NCBI RefSeq assembly: GCF_026151205.1 | Contig: NC_087072.1 | Span: 18,057,669-18,121,668 of the forward strand | Source: Bolinopsis microptera | Taxonomy: Eukaryota; Ctenophora; Tentaculata; Lobata; Bolinopsidae | DNA: 64,000 bases | Direction of reading: 5' to 3' | Shown: one piece after another, positions 6,291-55,640 of the stretch | How the letters are laid out: each line of letters starts with the position of its first letter | Position numbering within the stretch: the first letter of the stretch is position 1 | The notes under the pieces: model-generated | The model's database searches: none | What the model saw: only the letters and a program-made list of their open reading frames with translations | Told to the model about the DNA's origin: nothing | Translations under genes and position numbers: made by a program

Positions 6291-9200
6291 TCAGTAAAAC
6301 CAGTTTACTGGCACCCACTGGGGACTGGTGGACAGTTTGCTGATGCATTCGTACAACTTGCTGTACGTTTCGTCCATGTTGTTGTTCTGGATTATCACGT
6401 CAAAGTAGTGAGAGTATTGCCGTTTCAACCGCTTTGATTCCTCTATAGACTTCTTTAAATCGTTCTCCTGTGATTAAGATGCATTAATAATTTGGCTATA
6501 TTTAGTTGAAACGGAACATGATTAATAATCCCCCTACCATGAATAAACAGTATACTAAAGACAGCGTTAAGACTAAGTGGATACTGAATTCTTGTTTAAA
6601 TGCTTTGATCATGTAATATTGAGGATGAAATCCAACTCACCGAGAAAGCTTTGTTTGGGTTGTCCCGGGCTGATTCTTTGTGCATCTGTACTAAGGTTTC
6701 GAAAGGGGGAGCCTCAATAAAAACTATGTACGGTACGAACTCGGATGTTTTGAGGACTTTAAGAGACTGGGGGTTGACGTCCAATAAGCACATTTTACCA
6801 GACCTGAGAAGTGGAGTTGTCAGTAAGTCTTGTGGTGATAAGTCACGTTACCACACGTTACCACACGTAACGTACAGTATCATCAATTAAAACCTGAAGG
6901 AATTAGAACATTCCCAAAATTCCTAGCAAAGCCCGGATAATATCTCACCTCATGACTTGTCTGATGGAATCAAGTTTGGTGCCGTACAAATGTTTCTCGT
7001 ACTCCCCATATTCCAAATATTTATGGTTAGCAATGTCCTCGTCCATCTTCTCTCGTGTCGTGAACCAGTACCCACAACCATCCTTCTCTCCTGCTCTTAT
7101 GGGCCGAGACGTGTCTGAAACATACTCAATTAGTCAATACTCAAGCAGTTACTGCCACATCTTATGGGTGCTCGATGATGAAGTTTAAGTTCTTAAAAAA
7201 TAATAACTGATAGAGATATTTTCAAGACGATGAAGGGTGCAAATAAATTAATCTATAAGTCAGCAAAGGGAATTTCAAATATGTTCCCAAACAACTCACG
7301 AGGCATGGTGTTTCCGAACTTGTCAGGCTCATTGAGAACAAGTTTACTAATCAGAGACCGTCTCCCTACTCCCTGTGCTCCAATGAGTACCAGGGTCTTC
7401 CGGTCGAAGGGGGGCATCTTGGCCACTTCTTCGTACAAGTTTAGCTCGTGTTGGTCAAAATCTGAAGAAAAAAAGGTAGGAATATTGACATTCGGGTAGC
7501 TGGCGAGAAATTGGGTAGGAGACACAATATTAAAAGTCTTACTTACGGGTGAAGATTTAACAAACCACATGTCCATTCAAAATACATACCTGAGTTTTTG
7601 TTAGCGGAGTAGTTCATTTTCTTGTTCTTCTTTTTCCTCCTGTTAGCGCCGCCACATCCTATAGACGAGGTTTTCTCGTTGTTAGTGTTGTTCTTGCTCG
7701 CCATACGCTGCTCTTGTAGAATCAGACCAGGGATCAGACCTGCTTGTCCTTCACCTCCTTCCATCTTAGCCTGAGATAATTTAATAGTGAACATCTTTTT
7801 TAGACTTTTACAATCAATAAGAACAAATAATTTTCAATTTGAAAATGATAAACGGTTTAATCTAGTTACAAAATCAAAATGCCAGAACTACAGTACCTGC
7901 CACCAATTTGGATCGTCCTGGTTAACAATCTGCAGGATATCCCCCTCATTAAACTTCAGGCCGGCTTCCTTGCACGGTATCAAGTTGTCTGACTTGGGAT
8001 CGTAGTTAAAGTGAGCCTTGACGAACACTTGGCACGCTGGAGCTTGTTCCCGGTACGAGGGTATTATCTTGAGATGAATATCTCCTTCTTCGTCTGAAGA
8101 GAGAGAGAGGGTGTGAAGTGTTTTCATTAGATGAGGCACTTATATCAATTGTGCGGTATTTATGGGAAACGTTTTGTTCTGAAAAGTACATTATACCCAC
8201 CAAAATAAACAAATACTCAGTCGTAACTTACATTTCAACAAATACTCAGACTTACCTTTCAGCATGTGCTGTATAAGTTCAGGTTTGGGTTGTACATCCT
8301 GATTGTTGATAGAAATAATAACATCCCCAATGTGCAGCAGTCTCTGTCTGTCTATCATTCCTCCCGCCAAGATCCTGTGAACCACCACCCGGTCGTCCTC
8401 CTTCTTCAGGGTGATCCCCAGAGGTTCTCCCTTGTTCTTGTGGAGTCCCACCATCCGGTAGATGCTGTGGTTGGTGTTACTGGTGTTATCATTTCCCCCT
8501 ACACTCCTTACGTCCTTCATCTCTGGCAGGGTTTCGTTCTCGTAGTACGTTCTCGATATTATCTCGTCGTGTAGATCGATGAAATCTTCGAAGGTTTCCA
8601 GTAACCCAACCAGTTCCAGGATATTGGCATTGTCTTCTTCAACGTCCAGTCTCTCGTCAAGATAGTCCAGGGTCTGTAACAAGAATTGTTAACTATCAAA
8701 TTAACATCCAAATTAGAGGTGTTATATTTGTTTTGAAAGAAAGAACATTTCATAGTGAGTAGATTAGAGGTCTAAATTTGTTTTGAAAGAGGCGACAAAA
8801 AATGAAATGGTTAAAACTGATAGACCATGTCTGAGTAGGTAGTCTGAGTTACAAGTCTAAGTATACGGTTGGATAATTCCATACTTACATCCTCGAGGGT
8901 GTTTTTAGCGAAGTACTGAGTGGAGTTGGGTGGGACGGTAGCGTTGGAGAGCGTGTGGTAGATGGATCCAAGTGCTATCGTCAGTTTTGATTGTAACATG
9001 TTGTGTACCTGGGTATGTTGACTACGATGAGATCATTGATCGTTACATCATTTTAAAGTATGCAATATGAGTTATGAAAGAATGTAAAAATGTAAATCCC
9101 AAAACTTAAAACCCGCAATCTTTTGTATTAAGTTACTAATCGTAACTGCTATCCACAGCTTAGATGGAGAACATAGCATGATAATTTCTAAAAATTAGCT

Positions 9201-12200
9201 TTTCAACTTTTCAAACAAGGGCATAGAAGGTGCAGAATATCAAACCTTGTGGTACTCCTTATCGGAAGTGGGGGCAGTCTGTTGTATCACATCGAAACTA
9301 TCCAATATCTCCTGGATATCTTGTAAGGAGAACTTATCTGAAAGTAAGGTGTGTTATTTTTCACCGAAAAACTGTACAATTGACCAAATAATAATGGCTA
9401 AAAATAAAATTATAATAAAACTTTTTCCGGCAATCTCGGCTCATGGGTGTGTCCGCGTGAGCATTTATAATTTGACCAAAATTGGATTATAGTTGTATAG
9501 ATCTATACTTAGAGCATTTCTTATCAATGTGAGACAGCGTGGAGAATATGGGATTGCTAATTTGTCGCTTTAATGAATTTGCCTCCTCAAGGCTTATGAG
9601 TTGACTTAAGCCTTAAACTCGAATGTCCTCAATTCTAAATGACAAATATAATTTCTACGCACAGGGACCAGTGTGTATCCTTAATTTATTTTCATATTCC
9701 TTGCACTGTAAATGGTCTAAATACAATATGATGTACTCAAAGCTCTGGTGCGATGTTACACAATATCATACATTCGCAGTTCAGGTCTTCACTCTCCAAA
9801 GCTACACGTCATTTGAGGAGTACATACTGAATTTCCGGACCAACTGTTAACCGTCAAAAGTAAACATTCTAGTGTACAGCGCGTTGAAGATCATACGTTT
9901 AAACGATTAACGGTGTTATTAAGCAGATGAAATTACCGTTGGTAGGATTGGCAGAGTTGGTAGGATGGTTGGTGACAACGTCTTCGAGACTGTTCCTCAT
10001 AAGATAGAAAACTTCATCATCTTCATCGTCCTCCTCCAAGTCTTCAGGTAAAGGGGACACTCTGAAATCATCATCTTCCTCGTCACTGACTTGCTCTGTA
10101 ACTGCCTCGCACTCCAGCAGAGATGTCATCAGAGATGTCACCTGCAGCTCTGAGTTGAGGATCGAGTCGAACCCGTTCAGGACCTGCTGAGAGTCCAAGG
10201 CGGAGCTGGAGGGGGCCGGTGAAAGGTTGTCAGAAGGACTGTCGAAGACTGGAATATCTTCGTAGTCAGTAGCTGACGGGACTCTTGCAGCTACCGGCTC
10301 TGGGAGTGGGAGCGATGATCGGCGAGCTATGAAGTTATCAACGGACTTCGCAAACTCTGAGATAGGTTGGTCTTCGAATATCTTGTTGAAAGGGTTGCCC
10401 TCATCAGGTACCAGATCACGTTTCCTAAGCCCAAACAATGGTTTCAGTTTTGAAAGGATCGTGAGAGAGGCACTTCTATTCCTACGTTTGGGCGGATTTA
10501 ATCCTTCATTCGAGGCAGAGGTTGAGTCACCGTAGCCCGAATCTCGAGAACTCTTGCTACTATTATTTTTAAAGGGGCATTCCGAACACTCGGAGTTGTT
10601 AGAACTCAAGATAGTGCGGATAGGGAGGGCTGAGGTGGCAATAGGAGGAGCAGTTACAGGAGCGATAATCGCAATAGCAGGAGCAGGAGGAGCAGGAGCA
10701 ATTATCTCAGGAATGGGAATTGCAGGAACCTTCGGTGCATGAGGTTTAGGGACAATTTCTAGGAGAGACGTAGAAGCTGTAAGGGTTGCAAGAAAGTCAT
10801 CTTTAGTCATCTTGTCAGCTTTAGTCATCTTGTCTTTCTCATTGAAATTGTTGCACTTGTTAGAAACAAAAGTTTCACTTTTTTGGAGGTAAGCCTGCAG
10901 ACTCTCGTTGAGGTCAGAGGAAGATTTGCTCGTTATATGAGCGTTGATAACATCAGCGTATTCGCTGAGCGGTCTGACTCCTTGCTCCAGGTCCCCGACG
11001 ACAGAGCCATCAGGAGTACAGTCCAATGGGTTTGATGCAAACCGTTGCTTTATCAGTCGCATGCAGTACGACTTGTTCGTCTGTTGAAAAAACGTGCGCA
11101 CCTTCTCTTGCAACTCTTTATTACCGTCAAATACAAAAGAGAGGGAATTTCTCTTCTCGATCTCGGGAAAAGCACAGGGAAGAACACAATGGTCGGATAA
11201 GTATTTCCTACCAACTCTCTTAAACAGATCTTTGACCTCATTTAAATCCCGGAAAGCAGGCCCTGCACCTGTTCCATCAAGTGAATGATGTCTTCTTTGT
11301 CTAGCCCTCCTCGCCGAAAAAAGATCTGGACTTCGGAGAGGGTGATCCTGTTGCTCCTGAGGAACAGTTGAATCTGTTTTCTGAAGTGGCCTAGAGTGGA
11401 TAAGCGCCTCAACTACTTCAGTTTTATGAGAGTGTGGTCTCTGATTCTCCCGATATGCTGGCTGTCCAACAGGAATATCACTTGATGTATTCCTGATCGC
11501 TTCAACTCCATCACCGCGCTCTGGAAGGAGGTCTAGTGAGGGACGGGATGGGATGCTCGCACTGGGCTCTGAGGAAATGGTGTCTCTGTCAGTAACTAAA
11601 GTCAGATCCTCTTGGTCCGAATATTTTAACCTATTGTCATGCGTTCTCTGTAAATTCCTAAATTCATGCAAAGCTATATGATTGACCTGCAACGACTTCG
11701 ACCGTCTGATATAGTTCAGGTACGAAACAGGTGGGTGGTTTCCCGAGCATATAGCAAGAGTTGATGGTAATCGAGCCCTTGGATGGGTATTGGGAGAATA
11801 ACGGGGGCTGGGTAGCTTTTCCACACCGTCATCCTCCTGTGGAGAACTTCCCACACAAGGCTGCGAGCACATTCTGTGCCGGTGCCGAGCTTTTCTCATC
11901 AGAGAATGCTGAAGGACAAAGTCATCAGGACCATTGAAATTGTTACCTGAGCTATCGTGAGTGTTGTTCTGTGCATTTCGAGATGTAGGGTTCCGCACAC
12001 TAAATCCTAATGAGGAGGATGATCGTCTCTTCACGTACGTTTTACAGTTCACAGTTGGTTTTGCTTGTCCAGCTCTGTTAGTCTCGTTGTCAGGAGAAGG
12101 AGTTGTTCGTAATGAGTTATCAGGAGGAGTAACAGGAGCAGATGGTTCTGACTGCGTAGGAGAAGAATCTCCTGAAGACACTTGATATTTTTCAGGAACA

Positions 12201-13096
12201 TCTATTTTGGATATCTTTGGTATCGAAGGTTTAGCTGGCATGTAATCTTCAGGAGGATCCAGAACGGGATAAACTCGTTGAGGTTTCGATTCAAGTTTCC
12301 CAATTTCAAGTTTCTCGATCTTTTGGGTTATTTCCGGAACATCTTCCTCTGTACCATCCTCTTCTGGAATAGTTTCTTGTGAACACTGGCGCTTGTGAAG
12401 ATGTTTGCCACTAGAGCAACGGGGTATGCTCTTGAAGGCACTGCGTGAAGAACCGAAGTTATCCTTTTCCAGTTTCTCTGAGGAACCATTAGACTTGGAT
12501 CTAGTCAAGGATCTTGATGGAGGATCTTTGATGCTTCTCTTGCTGTTTCTGAGGTCGGACACGTCGGAGTGACGACGGAATCTGACCCGGTTACCAGAAG
12601 TTTCGTCTGCTAACGAGTTCCTTTGTCTGACTTCTTTAATTACTTCAATTAACCTATCAATTTCTTTGTTGGACGGAATCGAACCTGATGAAAATAATTC
12701 AGAACTCAACGCCTGGCTTAACGATAGTTCAGAATTCGCAAGTACCAATGGTTTCAAAGCTAGAGGTCTTATGACGTCCGATTCGATAGGATAGCCGCGG
12801 GAATTATCAAACGCTTTTTCCGCCATCCTGTTAGAGTCAATCTTATACTCGAATATTCTCGAACCCAGTCGACCATAGTCAAGGGAAGCAGACCTATCCA
12901 ATTTAGTGCGCCTGGCTACATCCTTCTCTTCTCTAGCTAACTGAATGAGGTGCTGCTTCACCTTCAAGCTGCTCGCTTCGTCTCTTTGGAAACGTGAGGG
13001 AGGCAACTGCCTCACAGAACAGGTTCCAGACCCACGGCGGCTTACATAAGAGGCATTGACCACTGATTTGGCATACGATACTTCTTCATTCTGCAT
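6291..13096 (-). CDS. MPP2/MPP6-like: MAGUK scaffold of the MPP2/MPP6 (varicose) group, ten exons, giant N-terminal extension
   Basis: Exons (minus): 13096-9937, 9337-9246, 9008-8889, 8673-8256, 8093-7897, 7770-7590, 7461-7300, 7114-6949, 6803-6641, 6467-6291. All introns are GT-AG, phases agree throughout, and the spliced product is 1611 residues ending PQWVPVNWFY, close to the vertebrate MPP2/MPP6 C-terminus. Domains: disordered extension 1-1053; L27-type helices about 1056-1170 (LELVGLLETFEDFIDLHDEI); PDZ about 1197-1275 (MVGLHKNKGEPLGITL); SH3 about 1278-1350 (GDILQIVNQDDPNWWQ); basic HOOK region (RRKKKNKKMNY); guanylate-kinase-like domain about 1400-1605 (LVLIGAQGVGRRSL, CLLDVNPQSLKVLKTSEFVP). 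As in other MAGUKs, the P-loop is altered, so this is a binding domain rather than an active kinase. Expected role: membrane-junction or synaptic scaffold. ATG at 13096 is preceded in frame by TAA 9 bases upstream, and a CAG acceptor-like site (ttaatttcccag) lies 30 bases upstream. A separate upstream gene reading through into this one is the main alternative for exon 1. Confidence 0.88.
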
Positions 13097-14167
13097 GGTA
13101 ACATCTTATCTTCGGGGAGTCATCAGCTGGGAAATTAATTTGGTAACGATGACGAAATCGCAAAAATTATATTTATTGGCAACAGCTAAAGTTGACGTTA
13201 TTTAGGATAAGTCAAGAGACAACGCAATGGTCGGGAAACATTTTCTTAATAAAAGTGTGAGCATACCAACATAAATGTTGAAAAGTAGGCGACGAAATCG
13301 ACAAATGTAACGATTCATATCAAATTTACGATGATCATAATGAAATAAAAGCTTTTTAAATCGAATCGAACGCCAACCATTAAGTGGCGATTCCGATTTT
13401 GAGACTAAGAATGAGGTACAACACACGGCGTCTGTACAGTTTACAAACACATAGCCAGGTTTACTTTATAAACCACCTGGCACCTAGGTCTGTCTTGTAC
13501 AGAACTTTAAACGTACTTAACAGAACGTCAAGTATATACACTGACGAGCATTGTTGCATGTTGCGACATACAGAGGAGTGTCAAGAAATGACTTCCTTCA
13601 GGGATGTCATATTTAGGACGCTCAAATGTGTGGACAGACACCCGGGGACTACTACAAACGTGTCAGTACAGCAGGGTGCTGGAGACTTGCAGTCTGTCTT
13701 CTTCTAATGATGTCACTACTTTTACGATGTAAGCGAATGGCTGTATTTAACTTATTATAAATAATCGACGATTATCGATCGATTATTAATCGTGAACTAG
13801 CACAGCAGTGTTTATTTTGGTAAAATGGAGTGTTTTACTTAAATGGAATATTTTACTTAAATGGAATAATTTTACTTAAATGTTAAAAACTCATACAAGA
13901 AACCAAGTCCCGCCAGCTGGGTCACACTTGCCCACATGCCGCTCCTGCAGCTATTTGCAACACTGATCTAATGAATATTGAATCGGGAAATTGCGAAAAG
14001 AAAACGAGCCCATTTATAATATCGGACTTACTCACAGTAATTTCAACAACATTAAGACATACGTACTTTAAAACAAATCGGATACTGATTGCATATTTCA
14101 GGGTATTTCTGGGTACTTCCGGGTAATTCAGGGTATTTCGTCCTTCGAACAATACGTGAATACGAGG

Positions 14168-14199
14168 TGCGGGTAGTAAATAAATATTTACTACCCGCA
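14168..14199. repeat. imperfect 30-bp palindrome
   Basis: GCGGGTAGTAAATA is followed within a few bases by its inverted copy TATTTACTACCCGC, so the sequence can form a 13-14-bp hairpin with almost no loop. No surrounding gene gives it a role. Confidence 0.7.
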
Positions 14200-17100
14200 C
14201 GTAAATCACGTATTTACATACGTAAATATGTGAGACCACTAGAACAGACCACTAGAACAGTGGTTCCGAGGTGCGGGAGACCACGGTACGGGGTATGCAT
14301 GGAGAGGGGCTACCAACACCAGACTACGAGAGGTAATGTGGGGATAATGAACTATAATGAACAATGATCACTAAACTAATGAACAATGACCCTAATATGT
14401 ATAGCTTTGCACTGAGTGCAGGATAGCGACCGGATATGTTTATGACCTTATGCAGATCTGTCGAATTGGGTCATAGTAATCTACATACACCGTCTTAGTT
14501 CATTTTCTGAACCGGAAGAAGTTGATCAAAAAACGCAATATAGCAAACTCTCTGTACGTTTACAGATACAAATTACACAGTAACTATTGTTGAAGTGGAG
14601 ATCGTGACAGTACAGAGACGTGACACGGACAGAGAAATGTGAAAGCGAGAATATAGTAGCTGTGACGAGCGTAGAAATATTTTAGTCAGGAGTAAGAGAA
14701 GGGTCACCGAAATTGTGCAACAGCGACAATTTGATTCGCTAATTAGTAGATTGCTGTAAGAGACACAATGTCATAATTGAAAGATAGCTATCAATACTCG
14801 AAATTAAATAAAAGTCAAGGAATATGACACGATTGAGTACAGCAAGGGTAATTGCCGCAAAGTTGGCAGTATTCTCCTAAAACAAGTATGAAGTATATCT
14901 GGAGGGCGGAATTCAGATCAGAGCACGCTCGATAGACACGACTTTTCAGACATAAATTAGGCCACAAACAAACAGAAAATCATGGCAATACAAATTAAAA
15001 AACAAGATATGTAAGAGATACTATCATGAGATTATGTTAAGAGTGCCCCAAACTGAACGTTACAGTTACACTGCATAAATTCTAAACTCTCAGTAAACGA
15101 AAACTAAACTAGTAGCAAGTACTCAAGTAGAACACCTGGAAACATCTCACTGAATATCGTCAGCAACTGGCCTGCCCGCAAGTCTCTCTCTCTCTCTCTG
15201 TTAAAGGGATAATAACTTTACACTACACATGATCCTTAGGATAAAGCTAATGAAGGTCCCGGCTCACTCCGCGCATTACATCAGCGCTATTTTAGGAACA
15301 TATGCGCGACTATACGATCTTTACAACAATGGAGGAGTGGTAATGAGACATCTGTTGACTACCTAGCAGACTGGGGCTCTGTCTCATCTTGCCCTCTCTT
15401 TTAACTCGGAGGGAATCATGAGGAATAATGGGAATTATGAGGAATCATAATAATTATGTGGAATAAGGAAGAGTCGTGTATCTTGGGGCAGCCCTCGTAC
15501 ATGTATTCAAGTAGCCACCAGCTAATGCACACTTTTGAAGAGGGAGTTACGTCACTTTGTTGAGCAGAAACTGAATAGTTACATGTATAATTGTCAAGAT
15601 TCACACGGTCCGAGAGTTGTCTCTTTCTCTCTCTATCTCAAAAACAAGGACCTGTATAGTCATGATGTCATCTTTTGTAACTTAAGGAGAGTAGTGAGTA
15701 CTGCAGAAAAGGAACTTGTTGGCCAGAGATCTGTAGTACAGAATACAGGAAGGTAATTAACATATGACTTCACTGGGCTGGGAGGTTTAGCTTTTTCCAC
15801 AAAAGTACAGTGATCTAACGTCTAAATGATAAATTAGGAGAAAACAGGGCACGTTAGTGGAGAAGAAAGTGCTCTATCGGTTGAGCGAGGTTTAGCATCG
15901 TGCAGCTACTACAAGTGTATAGACTATCTTAATTAATAGTAGATAATAGATCTGGAAAGTGGTATGGAGCATATTCCATAATGGAGGAGAACCGTATTAT
16001 GCTCTGACACGTGACAGCAGTTAACTGATCAGCTGCCCGAATCGACCAATCAGAACACAGAATAACTATCACGTGTCAAAACAAAGAATGTTCACCTCCC
16101 CACCAGTACCCAGTTCCATACCTCAACCCTATTATACCTGTACATTACCACAATATTGCACAACAGTCCAACATGAAAAGTTGCAATAAAACTGATAAGC
16201 ACACTACATACCGGGGATACCACAAATACCACAATACCGCGGATACCACAAAAGATAGCGGTCAGTGTTAAACCGCAATGTGGTCCACTCTATCAGCAGC
16301 TTAGTACTCAGCAGACAACTCCGAGGGGGAGAGAGAAGATGTGGTTCATTGAACATGAGTGGGTATAAGCAACTCTAATCAGTAGTTTAATAGCATGACA
16401 TTAGGAGCAGGTTACCCAGTGCTATGTGGGTAGACTGGAGCGAGAGTTAACCACAATGAAATATGAAGTGCACTGCCAGTCCCCGACCACAATGACGTGA
16501 ACTAGCCCACCAGTCCCCGCGGGGTGAGTGTATATTATTATTATCACTAGTTGTACATGTTGCAAACTATTCATATGATGTATCTACCAGTCGCCAAAAG
16601 AGCCGTGTTTATCTACAACTCATAAATTGCTTGACTTGTCTTCATTTGTCTAAGTTTTGATTGAGTTTATAGCCAAAACTTGACAAACTATAAAATTCAG
16701 TAACATTAATAAATGCCAGTGCTTGGTGTATTGTATTATAGCATAATATTATGAGCCACTAAACGTTAAGTGCTGGAAAGTAGCGCAGCAAAGAAGAACT
16801 AACCGAAGTGGCCCTCGTGAGAGAGAAATGGTACTGAGACATAACTGGTACTAAAATACTGCAGAACAGAAGTGGTAGCGATGAAGTGGTAAAATGAACT
16901 TGTCAAATCACTACTGGAGACCTACCACGGAGCTCAAATACTAAACCATGGAGGTTATGACGGTAAATGAAAAGTGACAGGTTCTGGAGACAGAGCAGCT
17001 TTTATTAAAATGGTGGTTAACAAGCTCAGTGCTATAGTAGATGTTAAATGTCACAACATGTTAAATGTCACAACAGAAATATTTAGCGACTGGCTAAAAT

Positions 17101-20100
17101 TTAGTATGTGTTATTTGTGAGCGAAAACATGCAGCTTTTAGATAAAGCCCCATTGAATGAATAGAATTACTAAACGTATTTTTGTGGTAAACGCGATAAA
17201 ATATTTCGAAAATCTTAATAAATCTACAAATCGAAGAAATCAAAAACTAGCGGCGTTACAGCGAGCGATTGCTTAGAAACTGAAATCATTTACACTAAAG
17301 GAACTACGTTTAAGTCGCGGAAGATTATGTCATCATAGAGGGGAATATTGAATACCATACTTCGAATACCATTCCGTGCATGCCACATAACTACTACCTA
17401 CTCATCCGAAACACACTGCCCTGTGATTACATTGCACTGCAAAACTTATTGCCTTATTAGTATGGTTATATAACATAGTAAGATGACGTATTCGCGTCAT
17501 TTTGGTGACTCAAAACTGTATGATTATAATATGATCAAATAGCGGGTAGTAGCTTGAAGACTACCTAATGGGCAAATGAAACGCATCACGACACACTAAT
17601 GACTGGGTAGTCAGGGTAATTATACAGTTGTAAGAGGTAGACCGCTGGTTAATGAGTTTAAACGCGGCTAAACGAAAACACTGGCTATAAACTTCCTGTG
17701 AAAACTGTTTTCATAACTAACGAGGGAGTATACATCATGTAACAAAATACTGACCAATAACTAGGCAATAAATATTCAAACTTTCGATATACACCAGGAT
17801 AACAGTATCAAATGTCAAATTGCATTGGGAAACGCTTTTGATAAATACTACTAGAATTCTCACATAAGCTATAGGGGGCAATGCGGTGACATCATGATTA
17901 TATTCAGGACGCTGGGCATAATTCCCGCATGGGATCATTATAATACAAGCCAAGGCAGAACACCTGCGAGTATTGAACACAGCTTACTATAATCAAACAA
18001 CAGGTGACTTAACCCATAATAGCATGTATATAACAAAAATCAATTAGACCTGGCTATGAGGAAAACCTCCATCAAGAAAAAAATTCGCATCGTCTCCCCG
18101 CTCTAAACGCAGAGTACTCGAGCGGTCTAATTTTAGATATTACTTCAGAATTGTGGGAGAGTTTTTTATATTTACTGATGGTCAATAGAAGACACTTCTA
18201 CACCTCAGGTGGCAATACGCTGGGAACTATTAACTGGGATAACACGACTGCTATGTCAATCAGCAGCGAGCTCACACTCAGACTATCCGTGGCAGAGAAT
18301 CTGAGAAGACCGCGGGGGTTGAAAGATAAAATTATAAAATATCTGCCCGCTTAAATAATTAATAATTTTTAAGGGCAGGGCGAATTTTTTAGCCGCTCAG
18401 TTTTAATTGTTATCATTGTTGGAGAGGGGGAGTGGGATATTCAGTGATAATGAAATTGAGCTAAATACTGCGGTTAAAACACAGTTGTGCAGGTGCAGGT
18501 TCCAGGTATTACATCACTTTATGGTATTTGATAACAAAAATAAATTCATTATGGGTGAGAAATTGGAGAAGCGCAAATATTTCAAATTGCAAAGTCTATT
18601 GAACGGGGAATGCGGGAAAAATAATTTTCAGTGAAGTTCAATTAAATTGACGCAGTCATGGTTAGTTTTTTTTATAGCAACGCGTAATGTCTGGACAATG
18701 TCTGAAAACTAAGCAAGCAGACTGTAAGGAGGAAGGAAGAGTACAGTAACTATAGAAAAACTCGGCTTTGATCATTCGTTCACATATTTTTGCTCCAAAA
18801 ATAAAAACGGCCGATAGAACAAATCGTGTAAAACTTCCGGCCTTTTTATCGAGCAATGCATTGTAACACATAATAGCAGAACTTCCTGCTAAAAGGAGAT
18901 TTATCTCCGGAATTGTGTTGCAGTGCAATAAAACGTGTCAACTCAGCTGCTAATATGAAAACTAACAAACGTGAGCACTGAAACATTGATTTTATACTCG
19001 AGGATTAAGAAAGAGGACATGGCAATTTGCATATGGAGTTGTGTGCAGCAGGAGAGAGAAATAAATTGAGCAGTGCGCACTTGAGATTGTCCTGCAATTC
19101 GAAGTACATCAGATCCATGAGTAGTGCGAGGTCTGCATGCCATGCAGTCATCTTGCACATTTTATCATCGGTAAAATTAGAGATGTTTAAAAACAACAGT
19201 CATAATTATGACTGGTCTAACTTACTTAGATGCTTGTTTTTGTTTTGGCGAGCTCAAATACTCGAATCCTCAAACTGTGGAGTCATCGAATGAAAAGTAA
19301 TGCAATCATCAAACAATTGACCGAGAATAGCACAAATACTATGGTTTAATTATTTTTTATTAAGTAAGCCATTATGTAGCTGATTATATAGCTTAACAAC
19401 GTCACGAAACTACCTCTACAGGAAACACTGAGTAACCTCGATATCAGAAGAACAAAATTACGCCATACTTGATTACTTGTTAGGCTATGTTACTAATATC
19501 GGATAGTAACATAAAATTATAAGAAGTAAGACAGCTCATCTCTCTTATAAACAAAAGCTGCATGCAAGTCAGGCTGCGAGATTTAATTAAACATTGAAAC
19601 AAGCATTCTTAGGATCTGTGGGCGGAAGAACCTGGGGGCGGTTGAGTAGGAGGATCAGGAGGAGGAGGATGAGACAAGGTTGTCTCCAAAGCTCTGCATT
19701 CTAGATCTTGCTAGTGGTAAGGATAGGCAGACCACAGTTGTTTTGACACGAAACAAAGCTCTCAACCATGAGCGAGCAAGTACGGGCTGGTCGGCCAGTC
19801 AAGCAAGTATTGTCATCATGTTCAAGTAGACAGCTATCTCTGAAGCAACACTCCCCGGACTCAAGGTAGTGGTGAAGCAGCAGGGATGGGGCCGGGAAGG
19901 GAACTGAGAGGAGATAAGAGGGACCAGCATTATTAAGGGCACGTATTTAAGTTAAACAACAGGAGGAGCGAGATAGTGGCTTGTGTCCGCATTATTGGAG
20001 TGTCAACATGGAGCTCAGTCCTATCTTCAGACTTACTGACTTAGACAGTTTGGAGGCTTCGGAGGGAGCTCTCTTGGAAACAGTCTCACTTAAACGCCCG

Positions 20101-31928: not shown

Positions 31929-33023
31929 TCACTTCTTAACAATTTGCAGGACATCATCGTGTTGCATTTTGTGAGTTAGTCCGACTCGTTGTGGGCTAAA
32001 CTTAACACTCGTACCCCACACCATCCCGTACTTGGTGTCATCGGCCATAGTCCTATGAATGGAATGGCAAACATCCTCGACTGTCGAGTTCTTTCTCATT
32101 ATAATACCCTCCGAGAAATCCGGCCCAAACCCCCTCTTTTTGGTGTACACCTGGATCAGTTCCAAATACTCCCATATCTTCTCAATCAGGAACTCCAAGT
32201 TGAGCCCAGCATTACAACTGATAACCACGTGGTGCTCCTGACGAGCTATTCTGTCTACTTCTTCTAGAGATACTATGTCTATCTTATTGTACACATAAAG
32301 GCAGTTTAGGTACACTCGGTTACCATCAATCACGTCGATCAGCTCGTCCAGCGTGACATCCTCACGAATCAGCAGTTCGCAGTTGAACAGCTTGTACTCG
32401 TTCAGGACACACATGACAGTTTTCTCATTTATCTTGGTTAGCTGCACGACGGTTGTAAACTTGACTCCACCTGTTGTCTTCTTTTTGAAGTAAATATTAG
32501 GCCTCCTTTTGTTCAGTCTTATACCAACACTCTCCAGCTCGTAGGTCAGGAGTTCCCGCTGCTTGTCCCCTTTAGTTGCGTCCAACATCATCACAACCAG
32601 ATCCGAGGTCCGGGCTACAGCAATAACTTGCCGACCTCTACCCTTACCCTGCGCGGCTCCCTCAATGATACCCGGCAGATCCAGCAGCTGTATCCTGGCT
32701 CCCTGGTATTCTATCACACCAGGAATACAGGTCAGTGTGGTGAACTCGTAGCTGGCACATTCACTCTCTGTCTTAGTGATTGTACTTAACAAGGTAGACT
32801 TACCGACGGAAGGGAATCCTATGAGAGCAACTCTCGCATCACCTGACTTCATCACTTCGAACCCATCACCTTTAGCCCCAGCTTTACCCGTCGGTTCTAA
32901 AAGTTGGGCTCGATATTTGGCCAGTTTAGCTTTAAGAGTCCCCAAATGGTATTCGGTTGCTTTGTTCTTCTGAGTTCGAGCCATTTCAGCCTCTATTTCT
33001 GATATTTTCTCAAGGATCCCCAT
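31929..33023 (-). CDS. DRG2: DRG2, developmentally regulated GTP-binding protein 2, single exon
   Basis: An intact 364-residue frame, the same length as vertebrate DRG2. It starts MGILEKISEIEAEMARTQKN and ends VLQIVKK. Visible motifs: G1 GFPSVGKS (69-76), the effector stretch YEFTTLTCIPGVIEY (92-106), G3 DLPG (115-118), the DRG-specific EGAAQGKGRGRQVIAVART (121-139), G4 NKID (246-249), G5-like SCNAG (269-273), and a C-terminal TGS domain (about 290-363). The MGILEKI start, FEVMKSGDARVALIGFPS and SPQRVGLTH distinguish DRG2 from DRG1. The family is an Obg-type translation-associated GTPase that pairs with DFRP2 (RWDD1); that partnership is from family knowledge. There is no intron anywhere in the frame, although most animal DRG2 genes have many. 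No frame damage, so it is probably functional; a retrocopy or lineage-specific intron loss would explain the structure. Confidence 0.95.
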   Translation of the reverse strand: MGILEKISEIEAEMARTQKNKATEYHLGTLKAKLAKYRAQLLEPTGKAGAKGDGFEVMKSGDARVALIGFPSVGKSTLLSTITKTESECASYEFTTLTCIPGVIEYQGARIQLLDLPGIIEGAAQGKGRGRQVIAVARTSDLVVMMLDATKGDKQRELLTYELESVGIRLNKRRPNIYFKKKTTGGVKFTTVVQLTKINEKTVMCVLNEYKLFNCELLIREDVTLDELIDVIDGNRVYLNCLYVYNKIDIVSLEEVDRIARQEHHVVISCNAGLNLEFLIEKIWEYLELIQVYTKKRGFGPDFSEGIIMRKNSTVEDVCHSIHRTMADDTKYGMVWGTSVKFSPQRVGLTHKMQHDDVLQIVKK

Positions 33024-39043: not shown

Positions 39044-40326
39044 CTATAATCGTTTGTAAGGTATTTCTTGAACCTTATTAAAGCCAAGGTAAGATTCATC
39101 ATACGAATAGTAAACATAAAGGCTGTTCTTATTCGTGATAACAACTAATACTTCCTGACGGAAATACTCTTGACTAACAGCAGTAAGATTGGAATACTGC
39201 AACAGAGTGATTTTTCCTTTAAACGCAGCAATGAAGCTGTTTTCATTCTCATCAACTCCAAAGGTTCTTTCAGGAAACATAGACTTTAGAGTTTGAACCA
39301 GACCATTGTCGACATGATAACAACTTTTAAACTTAGTTCCATCTTTGGGCCGAGAATGTTCTTTTACTTGAAATCGGTTCAAAACGTCCTTGACATTAAA
39401 TTCATTAGGTTGGTTTGCGATAAATTCGAGGACATTCAAATAATCAACAGGGCAATTTGTGTCAATATCAATCGAAACTGCTCCACACCTCACAATCTTA
39501 TCACCTGACACCTTTTCAAGTAAAACATGTCCTGAGCGATATTTCAAAAGCAGTATTTGAGTTCCATGACCTCCGTAACCCCCAGTAAAGAACCCAGGCT
39601 CAACAAGTTCATTATCACAGGATGCGAGAGGCACATTTATCTTACTAAATGTAATGCCACCATTGTTAAAACTATCGAATATGGCGTTTGTTATGTCAAA
39701 ACTATCTGAACGCACTGCTTCCCTAAAATCTGTTATCATTTGTGCTTTATCATGATCCTCCCCTGAATCACCTTTCAAACAGCAAATTTTGATTTCCTTT
39801 GCAAATTCAATGTTACGTTCAATTGTAAGATAATGCTCCGTTTTTGAGTATAAAGTACATCTGATTCTGTCTTCAGTAAAGTAATTGTGATTTCCATATA
39901 ACATATCACTATCATTCTCGCTTATGTTATTTCAAACATGGGCACAAGATTCATCTCCAATTCTACACCTAGAACATCATAGCCAACAACCTGACATGGA
40001 GACATTAGCACTTTGACAAAGAGCATTCCACCATATGCAGAGATGTTTCTTTTCCATGAGCCAATTAGCCAGCCCCACTTGTCTATAACATTGATGTACA
40101 GTGACTTCAAGGACTTCCAGCTCATAGAACTAAGAGATTCCAGCGTAAAGTCATAAAATGAAGGTTCAGATATTTTATACTGTTTCATGATATTAAACCA
40201 TGTTGTATGACAGTCACATAGCTCGTTGAGTTGGCGGTTAACTGTGGATAGTTTGAGAATATCTTTGCCATCTAAGAAAAGTATGATCTTTGAAACAAGT
40301 TCATTTGGAAGATTATGAAATTCCAT
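39044..40326 (-). pseudogene. FBXO31-like F-box gene, copy 1, one frameshift
   Basis: Two abutting minus-strand frames make one protein: 40326-39922 (F-box at about residues 3-45, LPNELVSKIILFLDGKDILK, then WGWLIGSWKRNISAYGGMLF) and, in another frame, 39904-39044. The second part has EPGFFTGGYGGHGTQILLLK and PERTFGV, matching the FBXO31 order 'PGLFKGTYGSHG...SPERTPGV'. In FBXO31 this region forms the substrate-binding barrel of an SCF ubiquitin ligase. The first frame ends MFEIT-stop; a one-base shift in the 17-base gap between frames would restore continuity into NISENDSDMLYGN. No intron of normal size fits. So either a young pseudogene or a sequencing/consensus error in an otherwise complete ~430-residue gene. 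Intronless, unlike vertebrate FBXO31. Shorter than human FBXO31, lacking its N-terminal extension and the acidic insert. Confidence 0.75.
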
Positions 40327-42060: not shown

Positions 42061-43406
42061 CAGAAGGAGGAAGACTGAGGAGAAAGAGGAGGACTGAGGA
42101 GGACTGAGGAGGAGGAGAAGGGCCGAGGAGGACTGAGGAGGAGGAGGACTGAAGAGGAGAGGGAGGACTGAGGAAGAGGAGCAGGATTGGTGAGAAGGAG
42201 GAGGAAAACGAGAAGGAGGAGAAGGAGGAGGACTGAGGACGGGGAGGAGGAGAAGGACTAAGGATGAAGAGGACTGAGGAGGAGGATGAGGACTGATGAG
42301 GAGGAGGAGGACTCAGGAGGAGGAGGAGGACTGAGGACGGGGAGGAGGAGGACGAGGAGGACTAAGGACGAGGAGGACTGAGGAGGAGGACGAGAGCGAA
42401 GATGAGGAGGAGGAGGACTGAGGAGGAGGACTGATAAGAAGGAGAAGGAGGAGGAGGTGGAATGAGGAAGAAGACTGAGGATGAGGAAAAGGAGAAGGAG
42501 GACTGGGGAAGAGGAGGACTTGGGGAGGACTGAGGAGGAGGCCTGGGGTAGGACTGAGGAGGATGATGAGGAGGAAGATGATGAGGAGGAGGACCGAGGA
42601 TGAGGAGAAGGAGGACTGATGAGGAGGAGGACTGGGGGAGGACTGATGCAGATGAGGAGGAGGACTGGGGGAGGACTGAGGAGGACTGAGGATGAGGAAA
42701 AGGAGAAGGAGGACTGGGGAAGAGGAGGACTTGGGGAGGACTGAGGAGGAGGCCTGGGGTAGGACTGAGGAGGATGATGAGGAGGAAGATGATGAGGAGG
42801 AGGACCGAGGATGAGGAGAAGGAGAAGGAGGACTGATGAGGAGGAGGACTGGGGGAGGACTGATGCAGATGAGGAGGAGGACTGGGGGAGGACTGAGGAG
42901 GAGGAGGACTTCGGGTGTAGAAGGAGGAAAAGGAGGAGAAGGAGGAGAAGGAGGAGAAGGAGGAGAAGGAGGAGGAGGAGGAGGAGGAGGAGGAGGAGGA
43001 GGAGGACTGACGAGGAGGAGAAGGACTGAGGAGCAGGAGGAGGATGAGGAGGAGGAGGACTGACGAGTAGGAGGAGGACTGGGGACTGAGGAGGAGGACT
43101 GAGGAGGAAGAGGATGAGGACTGAGGAAGAGGACTAGGGAGGATGAGGAGGAGAGGACTGAGGATGAGGACTAAGGAGGAGGAGGAGGAGGCTGAGGAGG
43201 AGGGGGACTGAGGAGGAGGACTGATGAGGAGGAGAAGGAGGAGGAGGACTGAGGAGGAGGAATGAAGGGATGAGGACGAGTATTAAGGACGAGGATTAGG
43301 AGGATGATAACGAGGACTAAGGAAGAGGACTGATCAGGAGAAAGAAGAGGAGCAGGAAGAGGAGGATAAGGAGGAGATTGAGGAGGAAGAAGAGAAGGAT
43401 GACTAA
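42061..43406. repeat. purine-only GGA/GGACTGA minisatellite block 1
   Basis: About 1.3 kb of GAGGAGGA with interspersed GGACTGA on the plus strand. Longer sub-repeats exist (for example GGAAGAGGAGGACTTGGGGA at about 42506 and 42718). Frames appear open because the repeat lacks stops in some frames, not because it is coding. Confidence 0.92.
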
Positions 43407-44224
43407 TAATACAATATTGTTTTAAACTTACCACGCCTTTTTGGAAAATCGATTTTAACAGTCAGTGCCAGCGGGTAACAATCTGGCCTTGATTGTGAAT
43501 CTGAATAATGGCAAACTTTTAAATATTCGATAGCAATTTACCCAATAGAGGACCATCAAGATTTTGACTGCAACAATATGTCTTCGAAAGATCACTACTT
43601 GCTGGTCACACACATGTCAACGAAATTCTCCTAGTTCTAGTGTTTTCCACAGTCTTGTTCTGTGAGTGAAGTATGTGTGAGAAAGTCTTTGATAAAATGA
43701 ATTTATATTTTTGAATTTTTAAGATTTAATTTGATAATGCAGTATAAAGAAATTTGGAATTAGCACGGTATAGCTAAGGGGGGGGGGGGGGGGGGGGGGG
43801 GAGTAATGACTACCAATGGAGACTTTTGGGGACTAATGGGGACTAAAAATCGTGGGGACTAGAGGTCAACTCGTTGGACGTAATTCACCCATTTGTCCCA
43901 TAATGTCCCCAGAATTTTTGGACAGTTATTTATGGTTTTCAAGTTAGTTTAATAACGATACGATCGAGATGTGCTTTGTCCAAGATAAGAGTAGGATAAA
44001 TCTGACTTTGAAGTAAAATGATATGCCCGGTTGTAATGTGTTCTACCACTGAACAAGTCAGTTCAGATTGAGGAAATTGAAGTTTAGCTCTCGTGAAGGT
44101 AGAAGTAGCGACTCGCTGAACTCTTGAATCTTTTGACCCCATCAGCATGGACATTATCGGGGGAAAATGATGATCGATTAGATCTTACAGTTACTCCCCT
44201 CCTTAGAATCTTGCAGTTACTCCA
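43407..44224. repeat. spacer segment S2 of the triplicated unit, with a 24-base poly-G
   Basis: Second copy of the 41252-42060 segment; G run at 43778-43801. Differences from S1 are mostly one-base indels (ATTTACCCAAT versus ATTACCCAAT, TAACAATC versus TAACCAATC). Confidence 0.92.
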
Positions 44225-45403
44225 CCCAGAAGGAGGAAGACTGAGGAGGAAAGAGGGAGGACTGAGGAGGACTGAGAAGGGGAGAAGGGCCGAGGAAGGC
44301 CTGAGGAGGAGGAGGATGAAGAGGAGAGGGAGGACTGAGGAAGAGGAGCAGGATTGGTGAGAAGGAGGAGGAAAACGAGAAGGAGGAGAAGGAGGAGGAC
44401 TGAGGACGGGGAGGAGGAGGAGAAGGACTAAGGATGAAGAGGACTGAGGAGGAGGATGAGGACTGATGAGGAGGAGGAGGAGGAAGACTCAGGAGGAGGA
44501 CTCAGGAGGTGGGAGGAGGATGAGGAGGACTCAGGAGGAGGACTGAAGAGGAGGAGGAGGAATGATGAGGAGGAGAGGACTCAGGAGGAGGAGGAGGACT
44601 GAGGACGGGGAGGAGGAGGACGAGGAGGACTAAGGACGAGGAGGACTGAGGAGGAGGACGAGAGCGAAGATGAGGAGGAGGAGGACTGAGGAGGAGGACT
44701 GATAAGAAGGAGAAGGAGGAGGAGGTGGAATGAGGAAGAAGACTGAGGATGAGGAAAAGGAGAAGGAGGACTGGGGAAGAGGAGGACTTGGGGAGGACTG
44801 AGGAGGAGGCCTGGGGTAGGACTGAGGAGGATGATGAGGAGGAAGATGATGAGGAGGAGGACCGAGGATGAGGAGAAGGAGAAGGAGGACTGATGAGGAG
44901 GAGGACTGGGGGAGGACTGATGCAGATGAGGAGGAGGACTGGGGGAGGACTGAGGAGGAGGAGGACTTCGGGTGTAGAAGGAGGAAAAGGAGGAGAAGGA
45001 GGAGAAGGAGGAGAAGGAGGAGGAGGAGGAGGAGGAGGAGGATGAGGAGGAGGAGGACTGACGAGTAGGAGGAGGACTGGGGACTGAGGAGGAGGACTGA
45101 TGAGGAAGAGGATGAGGACTGAGGAAGAGGACTAGGGAGGATGAGGAGGAGGAGGACTGAGGATGAGGACTAAGGAGGAGGAGGAGGCTGAGGAGGAGGG
45201 GGACTGAGGAGGAGGACTGATGAGGAGGAGAAGGAGGAGGAGGACTGAGGAGGAGGAATGAAGAGGATGAGGACGAGTATTAAGGACGAGGATTAGGAGG
45301 ATGATAACGAGGACTAAGGAAGAGGACTGATCAGGAGAAAGAAGAGGAGCAGGAAGAGGAGGATAAGGAGGAGATTGAGGAGGAAGAAGAGGAGGATGAC
45401 TAA
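44225..45403. repeat. purine-only GGA/GGACTGA minisatellite block 2
   Basis: Second copy of block 1, shorter overall, sharing its internal sub-repeat order, including the AGGACTTCGGGTGTAGAAGG landmark (42907 and 44962). Non-coding. Confidence 0.92.
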
Positions 45404-45833
45404 TAATACAATATTGTTTTAAACTTACCACGCCTTTTTGGAAAATCGATTTTAACAGTCAGTGCCAGCGGGTAACCAATCTGGCCTTGATTGTGAATCT
45501 GAATAATGGCAAACTTTTAAATATTCGATAGCAATTACCCAATAGAGGACCATCAAAGATTTTGACTGCAACAATATTGTCTTCGAAAGATCACTACTTG
45601 CTGGTCACACACATGTCAACGAAATTCTCCTAGTCTAGTGTTTTCCAAGTCTTGTTCTGTGAGTAAAGTATGTGTGAGAAAGTCTTTGATAAAATGAATT
45701 TATATTTTTGAATTTTTAAGATTTAATTTGATAATGCAGTATAAAGAAATTTGTAATTAGCACGGTATATCTAAGGGGGGGGGGGGGGGGGGGGGGGGGG
45801 GAGTAATGACTACCAATGGAGACTTTTGGGGAC
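45404..45833. repeat. spacer segment S3, truncated, with a 27-base poly-G
   Basis: Third copy; G run at 45775-45801. It follows S1 up to ACTTTTGGGGACT and then jumps directly into the purine repeat (GAGGAAGAGGACTAGGGAGG), so about 400 bp present in S1/S2 are missing. The shared GGGGACT/GGACTGAGG sequence at the joint suggests a microhomology-mediated deletion. Confidence 0.9.
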
Positions 45834-46862
45834 TGAGGAAGAGGACTAGGGAGGATGAGGAGGAGGAGGACTGAGGATGAGGACTAAGGAGGAGGAGGAG
45901 GAGGCTGAGGAGGAGGAGGACTGATGAGGAGGAGAAGGAGGAGGAGGACTGAGGAGGAGGAATGAAGAGGATGAGGACGAGTATTAAGGACGAGGATTAG
46001 GAGGATGATAACGAGGACTAAGGAAGAGGACTGATCAGGAAAAAGAAGAGGAGAAGGAAGAGGAGGATAAGGAGGAGATTGAGGAGGAAGAAGAGGAGGA
46101 TGACTCAGGAGGAGGACTAAGGAGGGGAGAGGAGGATGAGGAGGAGAACTCAGGAGGATGACTGAAGAGGAGGGAGGACTGAAGAGGAGGAGGAGGAGGA
46201 CTCAGGTGGAGGAAAGAGGACTAAGGACGAGGACGAGCATGACTAGTGGAGGACTGAGGAGGAGGAATGATTAGGAGGAGAAGAAAGAGGAGAAGGAGGA
46301 AGAGGATGAGGAGGATGAGGAGAAACAAGGAGAATGAGGAGGAGGACTGGGGAGGACTAAGGAGGACGATAAGGAGGAGGAGGGCTAAGGACGAGGATGA
46401 GGACGAGGGCCGATTATGAGGAGGACAGAGGATAAGGACTGATGAGGAGGAGGAGGAGAAGGAGGAGGAGGACTGGGGAGGATGACTCAGGAGGAGGATG
46501 AGGAGGACTCAGGAGGAGGACGACTATGGGGAGGACTGAGGAGAACTGATGGGGAGGAGAAGGAGGAGGAGGAGAAGGACTGGGAGTAGGACCGAGGAGG
46601 AGGGGACTGAGGAGAAGGACGAGGAGGAGGACGAGGAGCCAGGAGAAGGAGGAGGAGGATGATAAATGAGGATGAGGAGGAGGAGGAGAAGGACTGGGAG
46701 TAGGACTGAGGAGGAGGGGACTGAGGAGGACTGAGGAGAAGGACGAGGAGGAGGACGAAGAGCCAGGAAGAGGACTGAAGAGGACTCAGGAGGAGAAGGA
46801 CTCAGGAGGAGGAGATGGAAGAGGACTGATGAGAAGGAGGAGGAAGACTAGGGAGTAGGAGG
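45834..46862. repeat. purine-only GGA minisatellite block 3
   Basis: About 1 kb of GGAGGA-type repeat with its own sub-repeats (AGGACTGGGAGTAGGAC near 46565 and 46689). Ends abruptly at ACATCGAAATG, followed by three TTTTTGTC(C)G units and a 17-base poly-G at 47023-47039. Confidence 0.9.
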
Positions 46863-47080
46863 ACATCGAAATGTTTTGTCTGTTTTTGTCCGTTTTTGTC
46901 CGCCCTACTTTTTGTCGTTTTGAAAATAAAGGGTACCGAACGGACACAAAACATGATCCCCCAGCCAAGCATGTGTTACAATACAAATGTAATTGACTAT
47001 ACATTTAAGGTGCAGTGTACTAGGGGGGGGGGGGGGGGGAGCCAAGTGGATATTTGTTAATTTTGTTAAGTAGAGGTAAT

Positions 47081-50584: not shown

Positions 50585-51860
50585 ATAATCGTTTGTAAGG
50601 CATCTCCTTAACCCTATCAAAGCCAAAGGTATGAGCATTGATTAACCCCACCAGCAACTAAAGACTGTTTTTCTATTTGTGATAACAACTAACACTTCAT
50701 GATAGAAGTAATCTGGGATAACAGCATCAGGCATCATTCCAAGAGTGATTTTTCCTTTAAACGCAGCAATAAAGCTGTTATCACTCTCATCAACTCCAAA
50801 AGTTCTCTCAGGAAACATTGATTTTAGAACTTGAACCAGACCTCTGTCCACATGATGATAACTTTGATCTTCCTGCAAAGAATCCTCTCTCGCTTTAAAT
50901 CGGTTCAAAATATCCTTAACATTGAATTCATTAGGTTGCTTTGCAATGAATTTGAGTACCTTTATGTAATCAACAGGGCAAGTAATATCAATATCAATTG
51001 AAACTGCTCCACTTCTCACATATTTATCACCAGATACCTTTTCGAGGAGAATACTGTTTGAGTCATATTTCAAAAGCAATATTTCAGTTCCATGAGATCC
51101 GTAATCTCCTGCAAAGAACCCAGGCTCAACATGCTTATTGTAACAGGATCATAGGAGATACATTTATCTTACTCAAGGAAATGCCACCATTGTTAAAACT
51201 ATCGAAGATGGCGTTTGTAATTTCGACATTGTTTATACCCAATGCTTCCTCAAAATCTGTAATCATTTGTTCTTTATCCATGATTTCATCCCCTGATTCA
51301 CCTTTCAAACAGCAATTTTTAATTTCCTCTGGACACTTCAATGTTACGTTTAATGTAAGATAATGCTCCGTTTTTTTTTTTGGTCTAAAGTACATCTGAT
51401 CCTGTGTTCAGTAAAGTAATTGGGATTTTCGTTAACATATCATATCATTCTCGCTTACTGTTCATTTCTAACATGGGCCAAGATTCATCTCCAACTGTAC
51501 ACCTTGAACATCATAACCAACAACCTGACATGGAGGACATTAGCACTTTGAACAAAGCATTCCACCATATGCAGAGATGTTTCTTTTCCATGAGCCAATT
51601 AGCCAGCCCCACTTGTCTATAACATTGATGTACAGTGACTTCAAGGACTTCCAGCTCATAGAACTAAGAGATTCCAGCGTAAAGTCAAAGAATGAAGGTT
51701 CAGATATTTTATACTGTTTCATGATATTAAACCATGTTGTATGACAGTCACATAGCTCGTTGAGTTGGCGGTTAACTGAGGATAGTTTGAGAATATCTTT
51801 GCAATCTAAGAAAAGTATGATTTTTGAAACAAGTTCATTTGGAAGATTATCAAACTCCAT
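50585..51860 (-). pseudogene. FBXO31-like F-box gene, copy 2, multiple frameshifts
   Basis: Homologous along its length to copy 1 at 39-40 kb. Minus-strand pieces in different frames: 51860-51540 (F-box LPNELVSKIILFLDCKDILK...SWKRNISAYGGML), 51395-51135 (EHYLTLNVTLKCPEEIK...NNGGISLSKINV) and 51079-50642 (KVSGDKYVRSGAVSIDIDIT...PERTFGVDESDNSFIAAFKG), then a tail equivalent to PYKRL. At least three frame changes, one near an 11-base A/T homopolymer (about 51370-51382), separate them. The F-box portion is nearly identical to copy 1 while the C-terminal half has diverged more, which suggests uneven conversion between the copies. Confidence 0.78.
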
Positions 51861-51959
51861 TTGTATTTGTCCAGAAGATTCTTTCTTTGAGGTTTTTCAA
51901 CTCAGTAGGCAGTAACTTGGACATTTCATGCCTAGGCTCTGAAATAGTCGCTTTTGTTT

Positions 51960-53776: not shown

Positions 53777-54787
53777 GCTATGAAAACGATCGGTATCGCA
53801 AAGACTCGAGGCCTAGAGCGATCCAGTTCGGAGTACCCCAGGGGTCGATTTTATGACCTTTACTCTTTGTGATGTATATCAACGACCTTCCAAACATCAC
53901 AAATTTAGCTACGTTTATACTGTACGCAGATGACGCGAATATCATAGTTACTGGTTACACCGAGCAAGAGGTTCAATACAAACTAAATCAAATAACCTCG
54001 CTCCTGATCAAATTCAAATGGGTTGATAGCAACGGACTCGCTCTCAATCTCAAAAAAACTCACTTTATGGTATTTAGCAATCATAGAACGACGACCCTTT
54101 CTAACACTAAAGTTTCCATAGCTGGAGTAGTGATAGATCAAGTGACTGAGGCACGTTTCCTCGGAGTAATAATCGATGATAAATTAACGTGGAGCAAACA
54201 CATACATGCCGTTAGGGCCAGGATGAATAGATACATGGGTATCATGAACAAAATTAAACGGCACTTACCGTTAAAAGTCGGGCTTCAAATTTATCACAGC
54301 TTTGTTCAATCTCACCTCAATTTCTGTTCCCTCGTTTGGGGTTTTGCAGCCAAATCACACATTGAGTCACTATTCTCCAAACAGAAACAAGGAGTGAGAA
54401 TGGTTATGCCAGGTTACGTCAACTATTTCTACAAGGACGGCCAATTGCCTGCACACACGAGGGATAGCTTTAAAGAGTATGGAATTCTCACTATTCATGG
54501 AATTATCGTGAAGAACGCACGTATATTAATGCACAGGATGAAATAATTCCCTGAAACAGTGCCAAAATCAATCAAAGGCCTTTTTCCAAGTAATATCCCG
54601 ACAGTTAATTCCAGCCATGAGACTACTTGCCATCACTGAAACAAACTTAAATATAACGTGTCTTCCCAGCTTATTTTCAATAAACATTTACAAGTCTAAT
54701 GCAAAACGTGTGCTTTTGGAACACCAATCAAGAGGCAATAACGAGGAAAGCTGGCAAACCTTTTTACTGAATAATATTCCAGGTTGA
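53777..54787 (+). pseudogene. LINE reverse transcriptase fragment, inactivated
   Basis: The plus-strand frame reads AIQFGVPQGSIL, TGA (53854-53856, where the family has Gly), PLLFVMYINDLPN, then the catalytic block FILYADDANIIVTG, then FLGVIIDDKLTWSKHI, LPLKVGLQIYHSFVQSHLNF and SLVWG, the standard order of CR1/jockey-type reverse transcriptase palm and thumb. The YADD motif is intact. Further lesions: TAA at 54544-54546 where the frame otherwise continues FPETVPKSIKGLFP, TGA at 54637-54639, and a frame change before NAKRVLLEHQSRGNNEESW. The element is 5'-truncated; the endonuclease is missing. The CA microsatellite follows 80 bp after its end. Confidence 0.85.

Positions 54788-54863: not shown

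Positions 54864-55640
<777 letters not shown>

Follow-up and report, generated by a model that had tools for sequence, protein, structure and literature searches.

A MAGUK gene of the MPP2/MPP6/Varicose class in Bolinopsis microptera with a probable, exceptionally large first coding exon

The window analysed here is a stretch of 64,000 nucleotides from the ctenophore Bolinopsis microptera (NCBI RefSeq assembly GCF_026151205.1, contig NC_087072.1, positions 18,057,669 to 18,121,668 of the forward strand). On its minus strand, an open frame of 1065 codons runs from an ATG at 13096 to a stop at 9899, and nine further exons between 9337 and 6291 encode a MAGUK core of 558 residues. In the splice model that we derived for this strand, the long frame is joined from 9937 to 9337 to give a gene of ten exons whose reading frame is uninterrupted until the stop at 6291. 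The parts of this model are as follows.

9937..13096, minus strand: exon 1, the proposed N-terminal extension, from the open frame and the joined splice model; no relative in NCBIfam or the PDB, nor at cut-off in Pfam
9899..9936, minus strand: local continuation of exon 1 if the donor at 9937 is unused, reaching an in-frame stop 12 codons from 9937
9338..9936, minus strand: proposed intron 1, 599 bp, GT..AG, containing AATAAA at 9690 and ATTAAA at 9574
9246..9337, minus strand: exon 2, where L27N begins; read backwards, the stop at 9356 comes before any in-frame ATG
8889..9008, minus strand: exon 3, which completes L27N and has the core's first Met, at residue 35
8256..8673, minus strand: exon 4, L27C and most of PDZ
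7897..8093, minus strand: exon 5, the rest of PDZ and the greater part of SH3
7590..7770, minus strand: exon 6, the rest of SH3, then the basic hook region
7300..7461, minus strand: exon 7, start of the guanylate-kinase-like domain (GK)
6949..7114, minus strand: exon 8, guanylate-kinase-like domain
6641..6803, minus strand: exon 9, guanylate-kinase-like domain
6291..6467, minus strand: exon 10, the last part of GK, then the terminal sequence of the family (PQWVPVNWFY) and the stop

Elsewhere in the window, a 91-bp unit is repeated in tandem at 383-2507 (about 23 copies, 95% matches). A GTPase with MMR_HSR1 and TGS domains, which we take to be DRG1-like, is encoded in one unbroken frame on the minus strand at 31929-33023 and is possibly a retrocopy. 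Two similar F-box-looking genes lie on the same strand at 39044-40326, with a match to a Cyclin D1-binding domain, and at 50645-51896; we presume that they resemble FBXO31. Several kb of GGA/GAG-rich simple repeats occupy 42065-46863, where frames near 42.0-43.4 kb and 44.1-45.4 kb are alike, as if duplicated. A perfect (CA)n tract of 182 units at 54865-55228 is found near a reverse-transcriptase fragment (53869-54546) that scores just below the Pfam cut-off, and the minus strand at 56653-58623 encodes a secreted-looking protein with about six near-identical tandem repeats of 291 bp (97 residues) that have GLEYA-like domain matches. ARAGORN, run with the bacterial code, detected no tRNA in the window, and no Rfam family reached its gathering score there. 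A bacterial-type scan, which is unsuited to an animal genome, returned 9 promoter-like elements against 9.0 in shuffles and 6 terminator-like elements against 3.8.

Exon 1 is genuine coding sequence. When the exon was shuffled 300 times at constant composition, stop-free runs extended to 300 codons at most. Its codon score, for which the core and three further ORFs in the window served as training set, was 0.179 in the claimed frame against -0.006 and 0.048 in the other two frames and 0.018 to 0.058 in antisense. Because the shuffle maximum was 300 codons and the claimed frame had the best codon score, the frame is not due to chance. Up to 9937 the exon comprises 3160 nt, or 1053 codons and one base, and ends in phase 1. 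An earlier note on this DNA had described a single 3.16-kb exon, in frame and phase-matched to the L27 exon, and these figures and the open joined frame agree with that description; the local stop that it placed at 9899 is likewise present in the open-frame listing. If exon 1 were left unspliced (9899-9936, minus strand), its protein would end in -PLIV, like the type II PDZ ligands bound by MPP PDZ domains, a resemblance that is probably due to chance.

The codon usage of exon 1 differs from that of the core. Third-position GC is 0.43 in the extension, against 0.59 in the core. In synonymous usage, the claimed frame of exon 1 showed no correlation with the core (0.024), with higher values in the other two frames (0.338 and 0.132). 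As an argument against a join this is weak, since the core is also discordant with other ORFs of the window (-0.296), third-position GC varies widely among ORFs (0.30 to 0.54 in four others of the window), and that of exon 1 climbs towards its 3' end, up to 0.51 in the last full block.

Pfam searches of the core identified PDZ (148-220), SH3 (234-297) and GK (357-544) domains, in that order. The top chains in a PDB search were those of MPP5 PDZ-SH3-GK, and the top chain with PDZ only was that of MPP2 (2e7k, E 1e-16). Against human MPP sequences, which here and in the alignments, tree and L27 profile did not come from database records, identity of the core was 47.6% to MPP6, 45.2% to MPP2, 40.5% to MPP1, 34.9% to MPP5 and 34.6% to MPP7, and bit scores were 480-486 for MPP2/6 and 314 for MPP5. 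CASK aligned through GK only (46.5% across 172 residues). In a seven-tip tree the core grouped beside MPP2 and MPP6, with a local support of just 0.448. We assign the core to the p55 MAGUKs of the MPP2/MPP6/Varicose class, an assignment that identity supports and for which branch support is low. The earlier note had named a clear MPP2/MPP6 orthologue with L27-PDZ-SH3-GK organisation; the PDZ, SH3 and GK domains are indeed clear and closest to MPP2/6, but "clear" is too strong for L27. The protein does end in the family's terminal sequence, as that note had said (..PQWVPVNWFY).

The L27 pair was harder to detect. Pfam returned no L27 for the core at E values up to 1, and none at E values up to 10 for three L27 fragments, in searches where the HMMER filters discard most weak matches. 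Compared with a set of four sequences, the L27 region aligned to MPP6 at E 5e-7 and to MPP2 at E 5e-6, and the L27 of LIN-7 (1zl8) was a weak match to it (E=0.66). With a profile built from four human sequences, the spliced L27 region scored 13.9 bits, above all of 1000 shuffles (best 9.4). The same profile is weak on single exons: on the six-frame translation of the window it placed the repeat frames at 56775-58376 first and the frame of exon 4 eighth. We take the L27 pair to be probably present but divergent. In the alignment to MPP6, residue 8 of the core stands opposite residue 1 of MPP6, so that exon 2 faces the first residues of MPP2/6.

The extension encoded by exon 1 is 13.3% Ser, 8.4% Pro, 8.2% Leu and 7.6% Arg and contains no Trp. 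Three stretches stand out, the first of them in a predicted model.

10766..11245, minus strand: residues 618-777, the largest helix-rich stretch of the predicted model, pLDDT blocks 37-61
10637..10756, minus strand: residues 781-820, Pro/Ala/Ile low-complexity stretch, the lowest-entropy 40-mer of the joined protein
10013..10087, minus strand: residues 1004-1028, an acidic run close to where exon 1 ends

The more than 1000 Ser/Pro/Arg-rich residues, Pro/Ala low-complexity stretch and acidic tail noticed earlier were thus recovered, as 1053 residues, 781-820 and 1004-1028. Ten sequence patterns were tested for enrichment. RxxS occurred 21 times, some sites overlapping, against 10.7 expected, a count reached by 1 of 2000 shuffles; R[ST]xS occurred 5 times against 1.9 (reached by 78 of 2000), and there were 6 overlapping D/E runs of five against 0.05 (reached by none of 2000). 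In the extension neither S/T-P (12 against 15.9 expected) nor PxxP (10 against 7.3) was enriched. Short tandem DNA units were found inside exon 1 at 10795-10834; at the protein level, a search of the extension against itself for internal repeats gave only the self match at E<=1.

Single-sequence AlphaFold2 gave a mean pLDDT of 37 for the extension, with 948 of 1053 residues below 50, values that are no proof of disorder because they are expected for an orphan protein lacking an alignment. Within residues 618-777, helices were predicted with low confidence at 618-633, 643-648, 660-688, 703-712, 714-721, 727-754 and 765-777, and shorter helices were predicted at 43-62, 123-134, 143-160 and 1029-1041. 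FoldIndex does not discriminate, because it was negative for 30 of the 41 windows in the extension and also for 14 of the 22 in the core region. The extension is probably mostly disordered, with a helical patch.

Searches of the extension found nothing at cut-off in Pfam, no family at E<=1 in NCBIfam and nothing at E<=1 in the PDB, and residues 600-785 had no PDB match at E<=10. Two sub-threshold Pfam matches, Ig_J_chain for the extension (E 0.077) and a phage family for residues 600-785 (E 0.046), were taken as chance. Against the MPP sequences, the best E for the extension was only 0.88. Pattern matches to the core and extension turned up among viral contigs and among genomes of bacteria and archaea, and none was upheld by tblastn; this absence of relatives says little, because these were the collections searched.

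We then considered whether exon 1 belongs to the MAGUK gene. Exon 2 begins at 9337, preceded by ..CTTTCAG, and reading back from it an in-frame stop is encountered at 9356 before any ATG; exon 3 supplies the earliest Met, at residue 35. Translation of L27N would therefore need a coding exon upstream that finishes in phase 1, and exon 1 has this phase at 9937. The donor there (ACG|GTAATT) is middling: it has no G at +5, and a generic matrix places it eighth of the 182 GTs between 13096 and 9338 and fourth of the phase-1 ones, so that "good donor", the earlier wording for CCAACG|GTAATT, overstated its quality. Among 891 stop-terminated comparison frames of 30 codons or more (14000-64000, both strands), 17 have a phase-1 donor this good in their last 13 codons. 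The proposed intron 1 is 599 bp long, against 126-237 bp for the remaining eight introns. Alternative first exons were sought at score thresholds of 2.0, 1.88, 0.5, -0.5 and -2, the donor at 9937 scoring 1.88 in the scan background. At none of these thresholds, even -2, does the 599-bp gap hold a first exon that has both an ATG and a phase-1 donor. Between 13097 and 20000, three short ATG exons have phase-1 donors at least as strong as that at 9937 (seven at a score of 0.5), and a different first exon is possible because of these three candidates. The frame and the phase match can be read directly from the DNA; from the fit of phase, the startless exon 2 and the gap with no rival we infer splicing and expression of a joined transcript, which we regard as the best reading of this DNA and a probable one.

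The principal alternative is that exon 1 is a separate single-exon gene that ends at 9899, with polyadenylation near 9690, and that the MAGUK either has its own, unrecognised phase-1 first exon or starts at the ATG in exon 3. Exon 1 does have its own start, and its own stop only 12 codons past a weak donor. The signals AATAAA (9690, 209 nt past that stop) and ATTAAA (9574) lie beyond it, where about 0.6 hexamers of this type would be expected in the gap by chance (a hand estimate). Two genes are also favoured by the difference in codon usage from the core and by the three short exons in 13097-20000 that could come first and whose donors equal or exceed that at 9937. However, any of these candidates would have to splice across the whole of exon 1, the gap itself offers no ATG exon with a phase-1 donor even at a score of -2, and a start in exon 3 would lose the part of exon 2 that aligns with MPP2/6. 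Moreover, a donor of this quality stands at the end of only 17 of the 891 other frames, and we consider separate genes unlikely, though a reading to be taken seriously.

Exon 1 could instead be confined to a long isoform, the common protein being the usual short MAGUK made from another promoter. There is precedent in the class, since excerpts of PMC2414870 describe long and short forms of varicose from alternative first exons and forms of MPP6 with and without L27. At this locus a second promoter or first exon is only hypothetical, and we hold this form of the model to be rather improbable; it is a version of the best explanation and not its opposite. That foreign sequence was set beside the MAGUK by an assembly or sequence artefact is hardly credible. 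The extension has no relative found, but missing relatives weigh little in the collections named above; the GC content of exon 1 (0.465) lies inside the range of the core exons (0.424-0.500), and the joined frame is intact.

On the preferred reading, that of a p55 MAGUK of the MPP2/MPP6/Varicose class with an exceptionally large first coding exon spliced from 9937 to 9337, transcription would begin upstream of 13096 and translation at the ATG at 13096. The product would have about 1611 residues, with a Ser/Pro/Arg-rich and probably disordered arm of 1053 residues followed by L27-L27-PDZ-SH3-GK. Whereas the motif counts are as observed, the functions of the arm are what we infer from them: it may act as a flexible docking strip under phosphorylation control, with the acidic run beside L27N. 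Its RxxS sites would, we assume, suit basophilic kinases and 14-3-3. The core may keep the family's job, with L27C binding LIN-7, PDZ binding the type II tails of adhesion proteins and SH3-GK binding other scaffolds; for p55-class proteins, LIN-7 as a partner of L27 and type II ligands of PDZ are described in excerpts of PMC7662862 and PMC2414870. Most likely the extension is a lineage-specific regulatory arm. A more elaborate proposal, which we offer tentatively and consider doubtful, is that by a single first exon an MPP2/6 scaffold gained a phosphorylation-dense arm of a thousand residues, an orphan helical module at about 618-777 and an acidic switch beside L27N, and so became a signal-gated hub. 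If the join is real, it raises the question whether Varicose-type scaffolds bind phospho-dependent partners in this lineage. Two separate genes would leave an ordinary MAGUK next to an orphan protein.

The standard MPP architecture comprises two L27 domains, PDZ, SH3 and GUK, and MAGUKs have been reported only from Metazoa, a choanoflagellate and Capsaspora (excerpts of PMC2859873). Drosophila Varicose and vertebrate MPP2/MPP6 (PALS2) share with the present protein the PDZ-SH3-GK core, probably with the L27 pair in front, and the same kind of terminal sequence. Human MPP2/6 proteins start within about a dozen residues of L27N, whereas the joined model, which depends on the predicted splicing, places 1053 residues ahead of it. 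In the open-licence papers searched, we found no MPP2/6 protein with a comparable extension; excerpts of PMC1978500, PMC9012326 and PMC5968619 do not mention one. Exon 1 might also serve as an alternative 5' exon, the gene then making a long and a short isoform like varicose; alternative 5' ends are normal in this class (vari-long and vari-short, MPP6 with and without L27: excerpts of PMC2414870; Varicose is also covered in part of PMC2575209).

The extension is not unprecedented in kind, because long N-terminal regions are known on p55 MAGUKs such as Stardust, and the "new architecture" proposed at first was an overstatement. Extended p55 MAGUKs are documented in excerpts of PMC5180163, where Drosophila Stardust has isoforms predicted at 94 kDa (Sdt-F) and 139 kDa (Sdt-B), some with a long spliced N-terminal spacer, and of PMC2859873, where a kinase domain was recruited ahead of an MPP protein in CASK. 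Stardust/PALS1 (MPP5) is likewise a p55 MAGUK with a long region before L27N, lengthened in some isoforms by alternative splicing, but the present core is closer to MPP2/6 and the extension has no counterpart of the PAR-6-binding motifs ECR1 (HREMAVDCP) and ECR2 (RRRREEE). The best ungapped match scored 15 for ECR1, whose self score is 53, and 16 for ECR2, whose self score is 35; of 1000 shuffles, 736 and 654 respectively scored as high. CASK likewise combines a p55-type core with a large addition before L27; its addition is a kinase domain, whereas no Pfam domain reaches cut-off in the present extension. A real join would mean that a junction scaffold of an otherwise conservative class has acquired a large regulatory region via one exon, in parallel to Stardust and CASK. 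A further likeness is found in the neuronal ankyrins, a different family, in which a giant exon adds a long segment to a membrane scaffold; there the very large exon is internal, whereas here it would be the first.
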